DNA of 22,473 bases from a virus, in IMG/VR virus record IMGVR_UViG_3300011010_001092, positions 1 to 22,473 of that record; one strand, written 5' to 3'. Numbering within the stretch: the stretch's first letter is position 1; each line of letters begins with the position of its first letter. The notes under the pieces were generated by a model. The model saw only the letters and a program-made list of their open reading frames with translations. It did not search any database and was not told where the DNA came from. The position numbers and the translations under genes are program-made. This document shows positions 6,008 through 22,118 of the stretch, piece after piece.

Positions 6008-6017
6008 ATTATTTATC
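6008..6017 (-). promoter_or_regulatory. Late-promoter-like element heading the tail block
   Basis: Minus-strand GATAAATAAT lies 17 nt before the ATG at 5990. It is in the 104-nt divergent gap between the late minus-strand block and the + strand glycosylase gene and would drive the whole 5990-2820 block. Confidence 0.6.
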
Positions 6018-14641: not shown

Positions 14642-16279
14642 CTAGCTAAAGTTTGCAGGTGCAACACCACCAGTAAGAACTGCGATATCACCTTGGATAT
14701 CCATGTTAACATACTGTGTTTCAGGATGCCATCCAGCTTCCGTAATCGCGTAACGAGATTTCATACCGATTTTTGGAGAGAATGTACCTTCTGCGATAGT
14801 CTGAAGAGATTCAGCCATGATGTACGGCATAAATTTAACTCCAGGCTCTTCGTCAGCACCTTTACGACCGATTGCAAGTCGTGTATCTCCCCAAGATAAG
14901 TTAGGGTCAACATAAACTTGTACACCGTAAACTTTACCAGCAGGGTAAAGATTTCCAGCAACACCAGTCATATCAGTTGGAACTTGCGCGATTGAATAAC
15001 CAGCAACGTCTGCCAATGCAGAAGCAAGGCGTCCGTTAGTTACCATGAATGTTCCAGCTCCAAAACGTCCTCTGTGATAGATTAAGTTAGCAAGTTCAAG
15101 AACTTTAGTAACTAATCTACGTTGTAATGTAGAAACGTTTTCGAAACCTCCTGTACCTGTAGAAAGATCAAGAGTTGTAACACCAGCACCTTCAACTAAG
15201 TCGATCTCAGTGTTGTGAACTGCTGCTAATTGGAATACTCGGTCAACCAATTGCTTATTAATAGATTGAGCTAAGTCGTTTACTGCAACGTTTTCTAACA
15301 TAGAAACAACGTCGTAGTTCCATACTCGATTTAAGTCTTGAATCTGCTCAACAGTTGCAGAGATAGAAACTTGATCAGTTCTAGCTTCAACAAACTTAGT
15401 GAACATTCTTAGACCCATTTGACGGAACTTAGAGTTCTCACCAGATTCACGAGTCATTCCATTAGGAACGTCTCCTGTCGCAGGAAGGTATGAACCAGTA
15501 AATGCAGTAGCTGAATAATCAGCATCAGATACTGAAGTGAAACCAGAAATATGGTTTTCTAGTGCAGAAACTAGAGCAACTCCAGTTATATTACCAGAAA
15601 CATCACCGTTGATTGTAGCTGTGTTACCTACCAATGAAACAGATAAAGTGTTAGTACCTGCATCTGAAACTACTTTCGCGATTAACTGACCGTCTACACG
15701 AGAGTAACCTACAAAATGCAATGTAAAGTCACCAGCACCACCACCACTAATTGTGATAGCATCACCAGCAACAGCATTTGTGAAGTCATTTGCATAAGCT
15801 CCTTCGATCTTAACTAAGTAAGGATCAAAATCACCAGCACCAGTTCTACCACCTGCATATAAGTAATCCAAATATGGAAGGAATCCAACTGGAGAATCCA
15901 TAGGGATTACAGGAACTAGGTCGAAACCAATAGTTTTAGCAGCAACCTGAATTGCTACAGGCAATAAAGATGGGAACTTGTCTCCTGAACCAGAGTCAGA
16001 GTAAGAGTTCTTAACACCACCACCGAAAGGAGTTTGTCCTGCGGTAGGTGCTACTGGATTTCCCATGAATCCACCAAGAGATCCAGGAGTTTGTAAGAAC
16101 ACGCCAGGAGCAGTTTGTTCGAATAATGGAGTCGCGTTGTCAAAGATCGCGTGGTTGTGAGCGTACTCAGCTAACCATGGAGTCTTCGCAACGTCAGCAC
16201 CATATCCTTCTAAAATAGGCTTCCAGGTGTTTATCAAGCGATTATCACTTGAACGTTTAAAAATTTTTGTACGTGCCAT
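14642..16279 (-). CDS. 23: Major capsid protein, T4 gp23-like
   Basis: This 545-aa protein is the HK97-fold major head subunit of the gp23 type. The order protease-scaffold-capsid is that of T4 genes 21-22-23. Supporting sequence includes the N-arm, the segment FDLVPVIPMDSPVGFLPYLDY (as residues near 120-140), a Gly/Ala/Thr-rich insertion at about 170-265, and the conserved C-terminal half with NRVWNYDVVSMLENVAVNDLAQ and FVTNGR-type strands. Two (I/L)-x-E sites lie near the N terminus (I22-L-E24 and L36-A-E38), which could be prohead protease cleavage sites and would give a short propeptide. The ATG leader is A-rich without a Shine-Dalgarno sequence. No late element lies directly upstream, so it may be transcribed from the scaffold promoters. 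A strong terminator follows. Confidence 0.93.
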   Translation of the reverse strand: MARTKIFKRSSDNRLINTWKPILEGYGADVAKTPWLAEYAHNHAIFDNATPLFEQTAPGVFLQTPGSLGGFMGNPVAPTAGQTPFGGGVKNSYSDSGSGDKFPSLLPVAIQVAAKTIGFDLVPVIPMDSPVGFLPYLDYLYAGGRTGAGDFDPYLVKIEGAYANDFTNAVAGDAITISGGGAGDFTLHFVGYSRVDGQLIAKVVSDAGTNTLSVSLVGNTATINGDVSGNITGVALVSALENHISGFTSVSDADYSATAFTGSYLPATGDVPNGMTRESGENSKFRQMGLRMFTKFVEARTDQVSISATVEQIQDLNRVWNYDVVSMLENVAVNDLAQSINKQLVDRVFQLAAVHNTEIDLVEGAGVTTLDLSTGTGGFENVSTLQRRLVTKVLELANLIYHRGRFGAGTFMVTNGRLASALADVAGYSIAQVPTDMTGVAGNLYPAGKVYGVQVYVDPNLSWGDTRLAIGRKGADEEPGVKFMPYIMAESLQTIAEGTFSPKIGMKSRYAITEAGWHPETQYVNMDIQGDIAVLTGGVAPANFS

Positions 16280-16303: not shown

Positions 16304-17560
16304 TTACTTTCGAAGATCTAAAGATCTCTGTAGATTTTCTAGGTAAGTTTGAGAGTAACCTCTCTGCATCTCAACTACCTGATTAACAGGCATCATACCT
16401 TCTGTACTTTGGCTTTCGTTGAGTTGTTGCATTTTATTATTTTGTTTGTTTTCTTCAATTCTGTATTGTACGCCTCTTAGGTCCATTTCGTCCCAGAATG
16501 CTTTAGCTTGATAAGGAGTGTTTACTTGATATAACTGAGCTTTAGCATAAATTCTATTCTTTTCACTCTCATTCATATTAGACCATAACGACTTATAATC
16601 AGCTGGCATAAATCTAACATAATTTGGAACATTTTCGTTTTTATGATTAAGAACAGCTTCCATAATTCCTAATACATCATTTTCGTTAAACCATAACGAA
16701 CCGTTAAGAGCTTCAACAATTGCTTGTTTGCTATCAGTATCTAATTTATGAAAAGACTTCTTGTTACTATCATCCATTACCTTTAAGAAAGGATATTTGC
16801 TTTCAAGAACTGCTTTAGCTGAAGAACTGTTAACTTCAGTAATAACTGCATCAACCTTATTAATTAAGTTATCAATTGAAGTAGACTCGTTTAGTCCAGC
16901 AACTCCACCAAGTATGTTTCTTCCTCCAACTACTGTTCCTCCGTTTAGAGATTCAGCAATATATTCAGAGTAACCAATATTTTGATCAAGTTTTTCAGCA
17001 ACATATTGAGAGTACGCTCGGTTTGCATTGATGTTTTCTGAAAGGTATTCAGCAAATTCAATTCCTCGATTTGCTCCTTGTGCAATATATTCAGTGTACT
17101 GTAATCCTTTATCTAATTCCTCAGCTAAATAGTTTTGGTATTTAACAGAGCTATTTAAAGTCTTAATAGAACCATTTAAGTTTTCTTTTAAGTATTCAGA
17201 ATAATTGATATTTTCATTTAACTTCTCAGAGATGTAATCTTGATAATTAACCGACTGATTAAGTTTTTCTCCAAGGTAGCTAGAATACTCAATGCTATTG
17301 TTTGTAGTCTCAGCAACGTGCTCAGTATAACGAATAGACTCGTTTAATTTATTTGACATATAGTCAGCGTAGTTTACAACACCTTCTAATTGTTCAGCCA
17401 AATAATTTACAAATCCCACTAACTGAGAATCAGATTGGTTTAAATTAGTAGATTCAAGGATAGACTTGTGTTTCTTCAACTCCTGCTTAAGTCCACCAAA
17501 TTGTGATTTAAGAACTTCTGAATATTGATTCATTTGTTCTTTTGTTACAAAATTAGACAT
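16304..17560 (-). CDS. Nested in-frame scaffold (gp22-like) predicted from an internal ATG
   Basis: An in-frame ATG at codon 246 (17560) of the protease-scaffold gene would give a 418-aa scaffold without the protease. Upstream of it is an A-rich leader (AAAAAAATAATAACAACAAT) like those before ordinary starts here; in the long protein this leader encodes five consecutive Asn. An exact late-type element lies 67 nt upstream. The product would begin MSNFVTKEQM, similar in style to the long form (MSNLNSKNND). The two proteins could give many scaffold copies and few protease copies. This is inferred from sequence layout; no expression evidence exists here. Confidence 0.5.
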   Translation of the reverse strand: MSNFVTKEQMNQYSEVLKSQFGGLKQELKKHKSILESTNLNQSDSQLVGFVNYLAEQLEGVVNYADYMSNKLNESIRYTEHVAETTNNSIEYSSYLGEKLNQSVNYQDYISEKLNENINYSEYLKENLNGSIKTLNSSVKYQNYLAEELDKGLQYTEYIAQGANRGIEFAEYLSENINANRAYSQYVAEKLDQNIGYSEYIAESLNGGTVVGGRNILGGVAGLNESTSIDNLINKVDAVITEVNSSSAKAVLESKYPFLKVMDDSNKKSFHKLDTDSKQAIVEALNGSLWFNENDVLGIMEAVLNHKNENVPNYVRFMPADYKSLWSNMNESEKNRIYAKAQLYQVNTPYQAKAFWDEMDLRGVQYRIEENKQNNKMQQLNESQSTEGMMPVNQVVEMQRGYSQTYLENLQRSLDLRK

Positions 17561-18295
17561 ATTGTTGTTATTATTTTTTTGTGTCTTAATCGCTTCCTGG
17601 AACGATGCCCCTGAGCCATTTTCTAAATTATTTATCTTATATACTTTGTAATTATTCGCAAAGTTTAAACTTTCTGAGATATCTACTAAATGATTTGCGC
17701 TTATTATTGAACTACTCTTCAAGGAATTATAACTTTCAGTCATCATTGAGAAGTTATGTTTAAAAGATTCGTTTACTCCAGACTTAGTAGAGTTAAGCAC
17801 TGCTTCTGTAAATCCAGGTTCACCAACTAGGTCATATGTGAATATTCTTTGTAAATGAACTTTACCACCTTCGTTTACTTGACCTGCTGCTCTAGAAGAA
17901 ACTGACAGTTGAACACCACCATCGATTAAAGCCTTAGCTATTCGACCATTTGGCGTGTTTTCTAGGATTCTAAGTCTAATATTAACACGACTTCCTCCGT
18001 CATACTCTAGTGCCTCAATTATATGAGAAGCGCTCTTTAGTGAAACTTCAAAATTTTGTGGATGATCAAGTTCACCAACGAGTTGCCTTTTAGTGATCTT
18101 TTCTTTTAAGTAGGTTAAGTGAGGAAGATATTCATCCTTTTCATAAACTCTACGGTTATTATTCATCTGGCCAAAGATTGCACAGACTCCTTCAAGAATG
18201 GTTGAACCTGGTGAAGCGCTCTGTACCTGCAATTTTTGTCCAATGTTTTCTACTATAAGTAGCCAATCATTGTTCTTTGAATTCAAGTTTGACAA
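16304..18295 (-). CDS. 21: Prohead protease (gp21-like, peptidase S77) fused to scaffold/core protein
   Basis: This 663-aa protein joins two functions encoded separately in T4. Residues 30-170 are the serine protease of prohead maturation: catalytic His78 in GELDHP, Ser133/134 in SVSSRA, and the downstream D155-LVGEPGF motif. Residues 170-245 are a polar linker. Residues 246-455 hold the scaffold, with eleven 14-residue repeats of the form Y-x-x-Y-(L/I/V)-x-E-x-L-N. Residues 455-663 form a C-terminal helical domain. The start is TTG at 18295: the next upstream codon but one is a stop, the first in-frame ATG (codon 44) would remove part of the protease fold, and a late element lies 16 nt upstream. 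The capsid gene follows 25 nt later. Protease action would remove the core from the prohead. Confidence 0.88.
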   Translation of the reverse strand: MSNLNSKNNDWLLIVENIGQKLQVQSASPGSTILEGVCAIFGQMNNNRRVYEKDEYLPHLTYLKEKITKRQLVGELDHPQNFEVSLKSASHIIEALEYDGGSRVNIRLRILENTPNGRIAKALIDGGVQLSVSSRAAGQVNEGGKVHLQRIFTYDLVGEPGFTEAVLNSTKSGVNESFKHNFSMMTESYNSLKSSSIISANHLVDISESLNFANNYKVYKINNLENGSGASFQEAIKTQKNNNNNMSNFVTKEQMNQYSEVLKSQFGGLKQELKKHKSILESTNLNQSDSQLVGFVNYLAEQLEGVVNYADYMSNKLNESIRYTEHVAETTNNSIEYSSYLGEKLNQSVNYQDYISEKLNENINYSEYLKENLNGSIKTLNSSVKYQNYLAEELDKGLQYTEYIAQGANRGIEFAEYLSENINANRAYSQYVAEKLDQNIGYSEYIAESLNGGTVVGGRNILGGVAGLNESTSIDNLINKVDAVITEVNSSSAKAVLESKYPFLKVMDDSNKKSFHKLDTDSKQAIVEALNGSLWFNENDVLGIMEAVLNHKNENVPNYVRFMPADYKSLWSNMNESEKNRIYAKAQLYQVNTPYQAKAFWDEMDLRGVQYRIEENKQNNKMQQLNESQSTEGMMPVNQVVEMQRGYSQTYLENLQRSLDLRK
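16931..17413 (-). repeat. 14-residue (42-nt) scaffold repeats
   Basis: Residues 295-455 of the protease-scaffold protein contain eleven units of 14 residues, with one extra 7-residue half unit at 379-385. Examples are YQDYISEKLNENIN (351-364) and YSEYIAESLNGGTV (442-455). The 7-residue insertion shows that the base unit is a heptad, consistent with a long alpha-helical coiled coil. DNA identity between units is low. Confidence 0.85.
17627..17636 (-). promoter_or_regulatory. Internal late-promoter-like element inside the protease gene
   Basis: Minus-strand GATAAATAAT, identical to the element before the 5990 gene, lies within codons for K-I-N-N and 66 nt before the nested scaffold ATG. A nearer out-of-frame ATG would give only about 24 residues. 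Confidence 0.45.
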
Positions 18296-18311
18296 GACCT
18301 AAAAATTTTTT

Positions 18312-18321
18312 ATTATTTATT
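18312..18321 (-). promoter_or_regulatory. Late-promoter-like element before the protease-scaffold gene
   Basis: Minus-strand AATAAATAAT lies 16 nt before the TTG start at 18295, in the 52-nt gap after the DnaJ gene. Its spacing supports the TTG as the true start. Confidence 0.6.
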
Positions 18322-18347
18322 AAAGTTATTGTCAGTTTTTCTTAGTT

Positions 18348-19319
18348 TTATTCTTTTGCAGGTTTCAATAGATTTTTTATTTCAGATTTTATCTCATCTG
18401 TCATTTCTTCAAACGAGGGCGTAATTATATCTATTTTTACTATATACTTACCCCTTTCTGTTTTAGATAAAGCAAGTCCTTCGTTTTTGACTGAGAATTC
18501 TATCTTACTTAAGTTTTTAGGGTAATTTAGGCTAGCTTCATACTTCTTACCGTTTACTCCCTCTACCTTTATCTTCTTGTTATCAATTATGGCAGAAACA
18601 AAAGGTGCCTCTATTCGGTGTATGATATTCTTATCCTCAATTGAGATATTTGGCTCTAATACCAACCATATCTTTATTAAAGCATCACCGCACATAGGAA
18701 TAGACTCCACTTCTCCCCAAAAATTAGTTATTTTTTGTAAGTCTTCATTTCCTAGCTTAGAAAGTCGAACAGTTGTTGTGTATTTACCTGCATCTTCTTT
18801 TATTGCAGTCGTCATCTTAGTCAAGTCAAAATCAAAAGCTATAGTTTTCTCTTCATTCTCTAAAAAGTAGTCAGTTGCACTATTATAGTGTATTTTTTTA
18901 CGACTAAATTCTAATTCGATCTTTTTTCCAATAAATGCGTCACGAAGAGTTACATATGACTCTATAGTTATGTCCAAATATTCAGGTGTTCGATAAGTTC
19001 CAGCAGTTCTTCCTTGTTGCTTTTTATTTCTATCACCGTTTCTTTTTTGCCAATCGTTAAATTGTGTGCCTGAAAAGCCATTAACGAAGTCATCAAATCC
19101 ATGTTTAAAGGACTGGCTCGATCGATCATCGTGCTGCTTCTTCTTGATTGGGTCAGAGAGTATAGTATAGGAATCAGATATTTTTTTGAAATTATCTTCA
19201 GCCTCTAAGCTTCCTCCGTTCTTGTCCGGGTGCCATTTCTTTGCAAGTTGGCGATATGCCTTCTTTATCTCGTCAAGTGAGGCTGTGCGCTTCAAACCCA
19301 ACGTCGCATAATGATCCAT
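18348..19319 (-). CDS. DnaJ-domain (Hsp40) co-chaperone, CbpA-like
   Basis: This 323-aa protein opens with a complete J domain (residues 1-65): DHYATLGLKRTASLDEIKKA, the HPD motif H30-P-D32 in KKWHPDKNGGS, and helix IV up to about residue 65. A Gly/Asn/Gln-rich linker follows (68-105), then a C-terminal region with two beta-rich parts like the substrate-binding domains of CbpA/type II Hsp40. The cysteine-rich zinc finger of DnaJ is absent. The J domain stimulates the ATPase of Hsp70 (host DnaK), and the rest selects clients. It lies directly upstream of the protease-scaffold and capsid genes on the same strand, suggesting help with folding virion proteins. Its start is divergent from the glycan module, across a 60-nt shared control region. 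Confidence 0.88.
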   Translation of the reverse strand: MDHYATLGLKRTASLDEIKKAYRQLAKKWHPDKNGGSLEAEDNFKKISDSYTILSDPIKKKQHDDRSSQSFKHGFDDFVNGFSGTQFNDWQKRNGDRNKKQQGRTAGTYRTPEYLDITIESYVTLRDAFIGKKIELEFSRKKIHYNSATDYFLENEEKTIAFDFDLTKMTTAIKEDAGKYTTTVRLSKLGNEDLQKITNFWGEVESIPMCGDALIKIWLVLEPNISIEDKNIIHRIEAPFVSAIIDNKKIKVEGVNGKKYEASLNYPKNLSKIEFSVKNEGLALSKTERGKYIVKIDIITPSFEEMTDEIKSEIKNLLKPAKE

Positions 19320-19379
19320 TTTATTGGATTTTTTTCTAAACTATTCTATATTATATTGTATAAGAAAGAAAAGTTTTAC
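19320..19379. promoter_or_regulatory. Divergent AT-rich control region
   Basis: These 60 nt separate the starts of the DnaJ gene (minus) and the glycan module (plus). They contain dense TA-rich sequence, including TATATTATATTGTATAA on the + strand and TATAAT on the minus strand. They probably hold promoters in both directions, but no single element can be assigned with confidence. No RATAAATAA element is present. Confidence 0.35.
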
Positions 19380-19994
19380 GTGGGACTAGTTAAAAGTGTT
19401 AAAGAGTTCATGAAGATTCATGATGGCGAAAAAATTATCGTCTGTGGTTGTGGCACCTCTCTTGAAAAACTAAAAAACTCTTACGATCAATACATAACAA
19501 TCGGAGTAAATGATGTACCTGCAATGTTTGATCCCACCTATTTACTTGTAACTGATCACCCAGGGAGGTTTTATGGTAGACGCAAAGAGTTAATACAAGA
19601 ATCTAAAACTAAATTCCTATTTACTTGTGTAAAAGGATGGAGACACCCAAGACTAGTATACTTTGACTTGGGTTCTAAGGAACTTCGTAGCCTTGATAGC
19701 ACTTCTAAAATCGATCATTTTTTAAATTCTCCATACGTTGCAGTTGGGCTTGCATATAAGATGGGAGCCAAGCATATAGGGTTAATTGGGGTAGATTTTA
19801 CAGAAGGTCATTTCTACAATCATAAAGACGGTTCGCATCCACTAATCAAAGCAAATTATTTAAGGCGTTTAAATTCAGCATATCAAGTAATGGTGACTGA
19901 ACTAGCTAAAAGAGGAACTTCTCTCTACAATTTAAGTGAAATTAGTAAGTTAGAGATTCCAAAGATTTCTCTAGAAAAATTTAATGAAATATGA
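19380..19994 (+). CDS. MptE/DUF115-like protein, first gene of glycan module
   Basis: The likely start is GTG at 19380 (204 aa) or ATG at 19410; a longer frame from ATG 19311 would overlap the divergent DnaJ gene and begin with an implausible hydrophobic leader. The N-terminal part (KIIVCGCGTSLEKL, then YITIGVNDVPAMFDPTYLLV) has the G-x-G-x-S-L and I-x-V-N-D pattern of the MptE-like/DUF115 Rossmann-type proteins often found with surface glycan genes. The part around HIGLIGVDFTEGHFYNH completes the fold. It ends with an ATGA overlap onto the CMP-sugar synthetase. The exact reaction is unknown; sugar or glycan handling is inferred from neighbours. Confidence 0.7.
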   Translation: MGLVKSVKEFMKIHDGEKIIVCGCGTSLEKLKNSYDQYITIGVNDVPAMFDPTYLLVTDHPGRFYGRRKELIQESKTKFLFTCVKGWRHPRLVYFDLGSKELRSLDSTSKIDHFLNSPYVAVGLAYKMGAKHIGLIGVDFTEGHFYNHKDGSHPLIKANYLRRLNSAYQVMVTELAKRGTSLYNLSEISKLEIPKISLEKFNEI

Positions 19995-20629
19995 AAATAA
20001 TCATACCTGCTAGGGAAGGATCTAAGGGTTTTCCACACAAGAATAGAGCGCTTTTTAAGTATACTGCTGAGTCAATCCCAACTGAGATTAGAGAAAATGT
20101 TTACGTTACTAGCGATGACTCTAAGATACTTGAGATGGCAGATATTGCTGGTTTTAACTGTATAAGTCGACCTATTGAACTAGCACAAGACAATACTTCA
20201 ATGAAGACAGTAGTCGAACATGCCTTGGGTTTAATGGATGTTTCTGAAGACGAGTTAGTCGCAGTATTATATCTTACTTATCCTGAAAGACGATGGGTCG
20301 ACTTGATAGACGCTGTTGCCTTCTATGTTATGATGGAACCCGCAATGCCAATAAGTTCGCTCCTCTGTAAGAAGCCGGCTAAAGCCAGCCCTTTTCTATT
20401 AATGTATGATTTTGGTCACCGTGGCAAACAGATAATTAAACATGATCTATATCGTCGACAAGACTATCATGAATGTTTCGAGCTATCCCACTTCATCGTA
20501 TTGGTTAGGCCCAAGAACATAAATAAATTAAATAACAATCTCTATGATAGCGAGACTCTTTTTTGGGAGATCGAAGATAAGATTGATGTTGATTATGAAA
20601 AAGATTTCTTAACATTCTATGATAATTAA
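19991..20629 (+). CDS. CMP-sugar cytidylyltransferase (NeuA/PseF-like)
   Basis: This 212-aa protein matches the acylneuraminate cytidylyltransferase family, which makes CMP-activated acidic sugars. The CTP-binding loop is IIPAREGSKGFPHKN (residues 4-18). VYVTSDDSKILEMA and RPIELAQDNTSM follow, as in NeuA. The C-terminal E-D-K-I-D-V-D-Y-E-K-D-F resembles the metal-binding D-I-D-x-x-E-D end. Some positions differ from standard bacterial enzymes (REGSKGF for RGGSKGI). It overlaps both neighbours by a few nucleotides, so it belongs to a tight operon with glycosyltransferases. The activated sugar (sialic, pseudaminic, Kdo-like) cannot be read from the sequence. Confidence 0.82.
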   Translation: MKIIIPAREGSKGFPHKNRALFKYTAESIPTEIRENVYVTSDDSKILEMADIAGFNCISRPIELAQDNTSMKTVVEHALGLMDVSEDELVAVLYLTYPERRWVDLIDAVAFYVMMEPAMPISSLLCKKPAKASPFLLMYDFGHRGKQIIKHDLYRRQDYHECFELSHFIVLVRPKNINKLNNNLYDSETLFWEIEDKIDVDYEKDFLTFYDN

Positions 20630-22118
20630 CATTGCAGTAGAGATAACTGAAGAGTCAATATTACAAACTAAAGTTAGTTTACGTTCCTTTATAGAAAAAA
20701 ACGCTTGGTTTAATGGAACTGTCTATCTTTTAACATCTTCATATTTTCCAATATCTGAAAAGACTTTTGCTGAGATCTCTTTTCTCTATCCAACAATCGA
20801 AATAGTAAACGTTGACTTGGACGATCGAATAAGTAAGATGATGCATTCGTCTAAGCATATGTTAACTAGCAGTATGCTAAGCCATTTAAAGATGGGTACT
20901 TTTTTAATAGACGGGCCTGTGCTTTATATCTCTCAAAAATCTATATTCTTTTCTGATATTTCTTTTTTCATAGAAGATAACTTTATAAATTTTTCAAGCC
21001 TTTTTAATCAAGATACCTCTTCTATTTTTTACTTAGGTGAAAAATTAAACAAAAATGAACTTCTTTCAACTGTTGCTATGCTTGTTCTTGAGGATACTTC
21101 AATTCCTCCAAACAGAAGACTTTCTAATTTTCTAGTAGCTGAATTTAATAAAATAGGTATACCATCTATGAAATATAGCAATAAAATAGTGTCTGCCTCT
21201 AAGTATTTAGACAGATACTTTAATAAATTTAGATCTTCTCTAAAAGAAGTCTCATGCTTACATTTTAATGATGGTGTATTCAACAGTCCGCTATACACTA
21301 AAATAAATCAGATTTGGCTTCATACTGCAAGATCAGTTGCTCGTTTACTAACCAGACCTTTAGCTAATCGCTCAACTATACCTCATACACCAGTTCAATC
21401 CTTTAAGGATGATAGCTTTTCAGTTTCAATAATAATTCCAGCATTCAAAGCACATAATTATATTAAAGACTGTTTAGATTCTATCAAGAACCAAAAGACA
21501 TTAGCCTCTATTGAGATACTCGTAGGTATAGACAACTGTGAAGAAACCTTATCTGAATTAAATAAGATAGCAAAAGATTATCCAAATATGAAGGTCTTCT
21601 TTTCTAATAAATCAATTGGAGCGTATGTTATGAGAAACAGCTTAATTGAATTTACAAGTCATGAAAACTTATTATTTTTTGATGCTGACGATATAATGAA
21701 AGAAGGGATGATAGCGACTATATTGTACAAATACACGAAAAATCAACCAATTAGGTTTAAGTATTTTAATTTTACTCATGGATCAAACCCAATTATACAT
21801 AATTCATTGAATAAAGGAGTTGCACACGGAGTCTTCTTTATAAACAAAGCGCTATTTGACAAAATCGGCGGCTTTCAAGATTGGTTGTGTGGTGCAGACA
21901 GTGATTTCATGAAAAGATGCTTAAACAACAAGATTCTTGATTTACATATACTTTCCCCTTTATTTTATAGAAGAATTCATTCTAAAAGCCTCACACAGGA
22001 CCCTTCTACTGGTTTTAAGTCTACTTTACGAAATGAAATAGCGATCAAGATTAAAAACACTAGAGTTTGGCCGATTCCTCTCTCTAGAGTAACATCAAAA
22101 TTACAAAAAATAAAATGA
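20619..22118 (+). CDS. Two-domain glycosyltransferase: degenerate GT8-like + GT2
   Basis: This 499-aa protein has two parts. Residues 1-240 resemble a GT8-like transferase fold (MIINIAVEITEESILQTKVSLRSF, noted here only as residues 1-24; then HLKMGTFLIDGPVLYI), but the D-x-D expected after the YL strand is absent (YISQKS), so this half may be inactive or bind only. Residues 270-490 are a family 2 transferase: VSIIIPAFKAHNYIKDCLDS, IEILVGIDNCEET, the metal-binding FDADD, and GGFQDWLCGADSDFMKRC, which places the catalytic base. It starts 11 nt before the upstream stop and ends by ATGA overlap with the next transferase. It likely adds a sugar to a virion or host glycan; donor and acceptor are unknown. 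Confidence 0.82.
   Translation: MIINIAVEITEESILQTKVSLRSFIEKNAWFNGTVYLLTSSYFPISEKTFAEISFLYPTIEIVNVDLDDRISKMMHSSKHMLTSSMLSHLKMGTFLIDGPVLYISQKSIFFSDISFFIEDNFINFSSLFNQDTSSIFYLGEKLNKNELLSTVAMLVLEDTSIPPNRRLSNFLVAEFNKIGIPSMKYSNKIVSASKYLDRYFNKFRSSLKEVSCLHFNDGVFNSPLYTKINQIWLHTARSVARLLTRPLANRSTIPHTPVQSFKDDSFSVSIIIPAFKAHNYIKDCLDSIKNQKTLASIEILVGIDNCEETLSELNKIAKDYPNMKVFFSNKSIGAYVMRNSLIEFTSHENLLFFDADDIMKEGMIATILYKYTKNQPIRFKYFNFTHGSNPIIHNSLNKGVAHGVFFINKALFDKIGGFQDWLCGADSDFMKRCLNNKILDLHILSPLFYRRIHSKSLTQDPSTGFKSTLRNEIAIKIKNTRVWPIPLSRVTSKLQKIK

Follow-up and report, generated by a model that had tools for sequence, protein, structure and literature searches.

Does the long open reading frame 5′ of the capsid gene at this phage locus give rise to one head-assembly protein or to two? 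The window analyzed here, a 22,473-nt stretch of viral DNA, contains a 663-codon frame in which a protease, a linker, and a putative scaffold are fused. An in-frame ATG (its A at 17560; residue 246) lies at the border between the linker and the scaffold part. The first-pass annotation had proposed that two products arise from this single frame, the shorter one starting at that border. Its coordinates for the frame, the ATG, and an upstream motif are correct, and the proposal is strongly supported by an invariant Met, a start-like leader, and a clade-tracking element devoid of synonymous change. We consider it highly probable that this one gene yields both the fusion and the scaffold alone, the latter by way of an internal late promoter and an mRNA that runs into the capsid gene. 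The computed support consists of the domains, the conserved start, a constrained promoter motif that tracks the clade, a promoterless capsid gene, and genes for gp55-like sigma factors in relatives. The features of the locus are collected in Table 1.

Table 1. Positions in the window of the features discussed in the text.
Feature	Position	Strand	Description or basis
Protease-linker-scaffold fusion (long frame)	16304..18295	-	663 aa, TTG start
Protease domain (residues ~10-158)	17822..18268	-	AF2 sheet domain, Foldseek, invariant residues
Linker (residues ~159-245)	17561..17821	-	Low model confidence; holds putative promoter element and A-rich leader
Predicted nested scaffold frame	16304..17560	-	418 aa from an ATG; coiled-coil, made of 11-residue repeats that bear L/I-x-E sites
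Putative A-rich translation leader of nested gene	17561..17584	-	Leader model score
Putative internal late-promoter element, GATAAATAAT	17627..17636	-	Conservation, codon locking, gene-upstream enrichment
Putative late promoter of long frame, ATAAATAATAAAAAA	18306..18320	-	
Putative hairpin region	18296..18328	-	Arms flank promoter core; 3′ arm adjoins TTG start
Major capsid protein Gp23	14642..16279	-	PF07068, E 1.2e-34; starts 24 nt past scaffold stop

The N-terminal part of the fusion is, by profile and by fold, a peptidase of family S77 of the T4 gp21 type. Residues 34-142 match Peptidase_S77 (PF03420; E 2.4e-10, above the cut-off) in a Pfam profile search, and in a PHROG search the entire N-terminal part matched the head maturation protease phrog_207 (E 1.3e-35). 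The T4 gp21 structure 5jbl was matched by profile as well (E 9e-6), and it was the top Foldseek match of the protease model (E 6.4e-11; TM 0.77 by target length), followed by weak matches to herpesvirus proteases (E about 0.08-0.1). The AlphaFold2 model of the fusion has a mean pLDDT of 57.5, with values of ~75-88 across most of the protease domain; it is composed of a sheet domain (residues 10-158), a low-confidence linker (~160-250), and long helices that begin at residue 252, shortly past Met246. His78, Ser133, and Ser134 are invariant, and by their position and conservation His78 and Ser133/134 are the predicted catalytic residues. An in-frame stop sits two codons upstream of the TTG that opens the frame, and hence no ATG is usable for the long product. 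A J-domain (DnaJ-type) protein is encoded immediately 5′ of the protease gene, within the head module (18348-19319, minus strand).

No scaffold family, including gp22, was among the Pfam or PHROG matches of the C-terminal half. Its position, repeats, and cleavage motifs are what mark it as a putative scaffold. The motif in question, L/I-x-E, is that cut by the T4 protease (PMC9026906), and the scaffold part has 16 such sites, compared to 5.5 in shuffled sequences. For comparative purposes, 74 distinct fusions of about 30-90% identity were gathered from IMG/VR and huge-phage records. Of 528 homologs, ranked by how well they matched the fused query, the top 80 were retained, so split forms could be under-sampled. 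At one locus (L132:3896-5900), the fused frame is interrupted, by a sequencing error or a genuine split, into 425 + 235 aa inside the scaffold, away from the protease boundary.

The linker has a candidate self-cleavage site of its own, ISE at residues 206-208, whose E208 is invariant in alignment A2, and 72 of the 74 fusions have at least one L/I-x-E in this region. These observations would suit a scheme in which proteolysis of the linker releases the scaffold from the fusion, with no role for the internal Met. Such a scheme predicts equimolar amounts of protease and scaffold, however, and it leaves the conservation of the Met, the leader, and the promoter unexplained; we regard it as scarcely credible. 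Linker cleavage and a nested start can nonetheless coexist.

The boundary Met is present in all 74 fusions. Indels flank it on both sides, with variation both in the linker that precedes it and in the 0-4-residue spacer that separates it from the FVT sequence. The leader of the window’s ATG is AAAAAAATAATAACAACAAT, which reads K-NNNNN in the long frame. Although the run of five Asn residues noted in the first-pass annotation is present in the window, it is not conserved as protein; what is conserved is A-rich DNA. The run is a by-product of the leader, and we have dropped it as a feature in its own right. A 24-nt leader model was derived from 462 predicted gene starts and 2694 in-frame internal ATGs, which it separates with an AUC of 0.93. 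The family’s nested ATG scores 5.5; on average it ranks at the 99.3rd percentile among internal ATGs and at the 67th among predicted starts, and the window’s own ATG is at the 100th percentile of internal ATGs. At the gene’s remaining five conserved Met columns, the leader means are at the 41st-88th percentile. By composition, then, the A-rich leader of the nested ATG looks like that of a true start. A-rich leaders without a Shine-Dalgarno sequence are the norm in Bacteroidota (PMC6847099), and two of the relatives fall in Bacteroidetes MAGs. Four codons past the nested ATG, Val codon 250 (near 17546-17548, minus strand) is GTA in 35/35 relatives, and this locked codon is perhaps part of the initiation region. 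The first-pass annotation had held that fusions retained after loss of the ATG and leader would count against a nested start; within this fusion family, the fusion was found with the ATG and leader in place.

The second signal is located in the linker. The 10-mer GATAAATAAT is in the sense orientation, and its nearest edge is 67 nt upstream of the nested ATG, just where it had been placed. It had also been called an exact copy of a late element that precedes other virion genes, and this part does not stand: the 10-mer has one further copy in the window, at 6008-6017, ahead of a 74-aa ORF. Having two window copies, it was dropped as stand-alone evidence. The core that it shares with the region upstream of the protease is ATAAATAA. 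In the window alone this core is no more frequent than chance would have it (30 found vs. 28 expected; 9-mer, 1 mismatch), and we count it as significant because of its conservation and its genome-wide enrichment in relatives. In an unbiased enrichment analysis, ATAAATAA was the top gene-upstream 8-mer of the close clade (32 vs. 0.63 expected; 44 vs. 0.57); in a second, more distant clade, that place was taken by GATATATA (21 vs. 0.28 expected). Genes for a gp55-like late sigma factor were detected in 5 of the 7 contigs searched, in both clades (E 1e-15 to 1e-19), and gp55 promoters require just a -10-like element (PMC2988020). As judged from the enrichment of an AT-rich element and the encoded sigma factor, the late promoter system here is of the T4 gp55 type.

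The internal copy is under constraint as DNA. Among the relatives that have ATAAATAA ahead of their genes, it reads RATAAATAA in 46/46, even though the preceding residue varies among K, R, and Q and, in L086/L089, a small insertion has shifted the element. The Ile codon within it is ATA in 33/33 members of the close clade, whereas the next-highest conserved Ile column has 29% ATA. On a 35-taxon tree, the locked codons have undergone no synonymous changes, compared to means of 9.4 for Ile and 7.5 for Asn. In the second clade, the internal copy is GATATATA in 16/18, and it locks a different pair of codons three residues earlier (Ile219 of the alignment, not Ile222; ATA in 15/15). Protein constraint does not explain the element, because selection on amino acids cannot fix ATA and AAT codons. 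The element in the linker is therefore almost certainly a late promoter, on the strength of these sequence comparisons. A short out-of-frame ORF whose ATG is 15 nt past the element is not conserved and was dropped.

The same facts bear on the notion that only the fusion is made, with the Met and the element having been retained for protein reasons or for unrelated DNA or RNA reasons. Fusions similar to that of phage PTm1 have no boundary Met and presumably function as single proteins, a point in favor of this notion. But the Met persists here despite variable neighbors and spacing, the leader is composed like those of true starts, and the locked codons are beyond the reach of amino-acid selection. 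We thus think it very improbable.

The capsid gene offers a further line of evidence. Among 39 close-clade loci, it starts 16-37 nt past the scaffold stop, and RATAAATAA is absent from the 150 nt ahead of it in 39/39. In the second clade the capsid start is mostly 9-35 nt past the scaffold stop, and no GATATATA was found ahead of it. Given a close-clade capsid gene without a promoter of its own, the internal promoter probably serves both genes, feeding a scaffold-capsid mRNA. Huge phages differ: their capsid gene is preceded by its own AATATATA, the top gene-upstream 8-mer of that clade, in 4/5, and their internal copy is degenerate. A second peak of synonymous constraint is located at the 3′ end of the scaffold (16398-16420, minus strand; codons about 626-633). 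The constrained sequence, AACGAAAGCCAA(A/G)GTACAGAAGG, is unique in each genome and lies some 120-140 nt ahead of the capsid gene. Its folds are inconsistent and it has no Rfam match; this uniqueness, too, led us to reject a simple hairpin as the explanation of the peak.

Could ribosomes instead initiate internally on the long mRNA, independently or by coupling, as in lambda C/Nu3 and Mu I/Z, and so make the scaffold with no internal promoter at all? The huge-phage clade conserves the nested start and leader although its internal promoter copy is degenerate. The start and leader are conserved in the L130-L137 clade as well, and L122/L132 retain the Met; no clade promoter motif was recognized in any of these. 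Set against this are the capsid gene that has no promoter of its own and the locking of codons to each clade’s own gene-upstream consensus, in a different register per clade. We deem this alternative unlikely, albeit worth keeping in mind. As for the internal re-initiation invoked in the first-pass annotation, we favor over it a separate late transcript on which the scaffold start is used independently.

That annotation had also envisioned a rare fusion and an abundant scaffold. This is plausible, yet the promoters do not speak for it: among gene-proximal late promoters, the PWM percentile of the internal element is just the 20th, compared to the 53rd for the protease promoter. The internal element lacks the A-rich 3′ extension of other late promoters (PWM 14.0 vs. 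a mean of 17.3; no higher than the 68th percentile among other in-CDS copies of ATAAATAA) and is 45-75 nt from its ATG, where the spacing for other late genes is mostly 22-34 nt; for these reasons, the internal promoter may be weak. We do not take promoter strength as proof of an abundant scaffold, as the PWM percentiles do not support it.

In the window, the ATAAATAA core at 18313-18320 is 25 nt ahead of the protease start, and in 46/46 close relatives a TTG, GTG, or ATG, mostly TTG or GTG, is found 24-29 nt past the core. In many relatives the core is in the loop of a putative hairpin whose 3′ arm adjoins the protease start. The arms covary (GCC/GGC, GTC/GAC, CGTCT/AGACG, GTCTTCG/CGAAGAC). 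Because the MAFFT alignment placed the 5′ arm in mixed registers, arm-mispairing was chosen over column counts to assess the hairpin; the stem score was 16.1, compared to 13.3 +/- 0.4 for mispaired arms (35 representatives). The hairpin is weak in the window’s copy and strong in relatives, except for the L086-L107 subgroup, where it is weak or missing. As a general trait of late promoters it was ruled out (12.06 vs. 11.56 +/- 0.29). Elsewhere, in a relative (G001, the contig of L016; about 191477-191560, plus strand), a GIY-YIG homing endonuclease gene has its ATG covered by a long, nearly perfect hairpin with a late promoter core inside it, in the manner of T4-style sequestration.

The model that we infer covers the actual transcription start, the two products and their ratio, targeting to the core, and cleavage. 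The long frame’s own late promoter and TTG would give the fusion, whose scaffold part would carry the protease into the prohead core. The linker promoter would give a shorter late mRNA on which the boundary ATG is the first in-frame start; from it would come a scaffold that shares the C-terminus of the fusion, and then the capsid protein. After assembly, the protease would cut the L/I-x-E sites of the linker and the scaffold repeats. We lean somewhat toward an extension of this model, in which the embedded promoter changes register with late-promoter specificity and drives scaffold and capsid, while the protease is gated by its non-ATG start and by the hairpin, which would block the translation of read-through RNA. 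If so, two nested transcripts would set both the stoichiometry and the timing of head assembly. By analogy with T4, whose prohead contains about 72 gp21, 576 gp22, and 930 gp23 (PMC9026906), the nested transcript may be a direct route to such protease/scaffold/capsid ratios.

From these comparisons, a large group of T4-related Bacteroidota phages appears to obtain two head-assembly proteins from one gene. If true, the nested protease/scaffold layout of lambda, Mu, and the herpesviruses would extend to the T4-type head lineage, in abundant phages whose genomes are in some cases among the largest known for phages. The 418-aa scaffold would escape automated annotation. The locus would also be a clean natural experiment in which a promoter has fixed codons of a protein gene and the register of those codons differs between two clades, each with its own late-promoter motif. 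Farther along the window (19311-22118, plus strand), genes for a family 2 glycosyltransferase and a cytidylyltransferase (CTP_transf_3) are clustered, which suggests sugar-nucleotide and surface-glycan functions.

In the C/Nu3 system of lambda, the scaffold is made from an internal translation start inside the protease gene. The I/Z pair of Mu also uses an internal translation start, with a Shine-Dalgarno sequence (PMC4378225). The locus studied here resembles both in its predicted in-frame scaffold start inside the protease gene, and the trait that defines a nested scaffold, a conserved boundary start with its own initiation signal, was found in the invariant Met and the leader score. It differs in its putative internal promoter and in its A-rich leader without a Shine-Dalgarno sequence. 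With T4 genes 21, 22, and 23, it shares a gp21-like protease, a Gp23 capsid protein, L/I-x-E sites, and late promoters. In T4, however, protease and scaffold are separate genes, and the internal start of gp21, at Met45, gives essential short gp21s (PMC9026906), i.e. a shorter protease. This phage is not alone in having a protease-scaffold fusion in a T4-type head module: ORF-300 of Tenacibaculum phage PTm1 and a frame of Streptococcus phage vB_SagM-GXN1 combine a protease and a long coiled-coil in one frame just 5′ of the capsid gene, although PTm1 has no Met at the domain boundary.

The hairpin has parallels in T4 genes e, soc, 49, and I-TevI, where a late promoter is inside a hairpin; read-through RNA hides the start codon, and late transcripts lack the hairpin’s 5′ arm (PMC3014915). 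The predicted arms here similarly flank a late promoter, cover the start, and covary. They differ in serving a head protease, in being weak in the window, and in being missing from part of the clade.

The closest precedent, by analogy, is UL26/UL26.5 of the herpesviruses, in which the scaffold is expressed from an internal promoter (PMC10284419). Both systems have an N-terminal maturation protease, a C-terminal scaffold, and a shared C-terminus, and in both the short scaffold comes from a promoter within the protease gene, as predicted here from sequence. A promoter upstream of the nested start and inside the protease gene is indeed what motif identity, constraint, and clade tracking point to. 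The differences are that this is a tailed Bacteroidota phage with an S77 protease and a gp55-type late promoter instead of the herpesvirus TATA box, and that the internal promoter probably drives the capsid gene too. Since the promoter version resembles that of the herpesviruses and not lambda or Mu, it bears on whether the nested layout is ancestral or convergent in origin.
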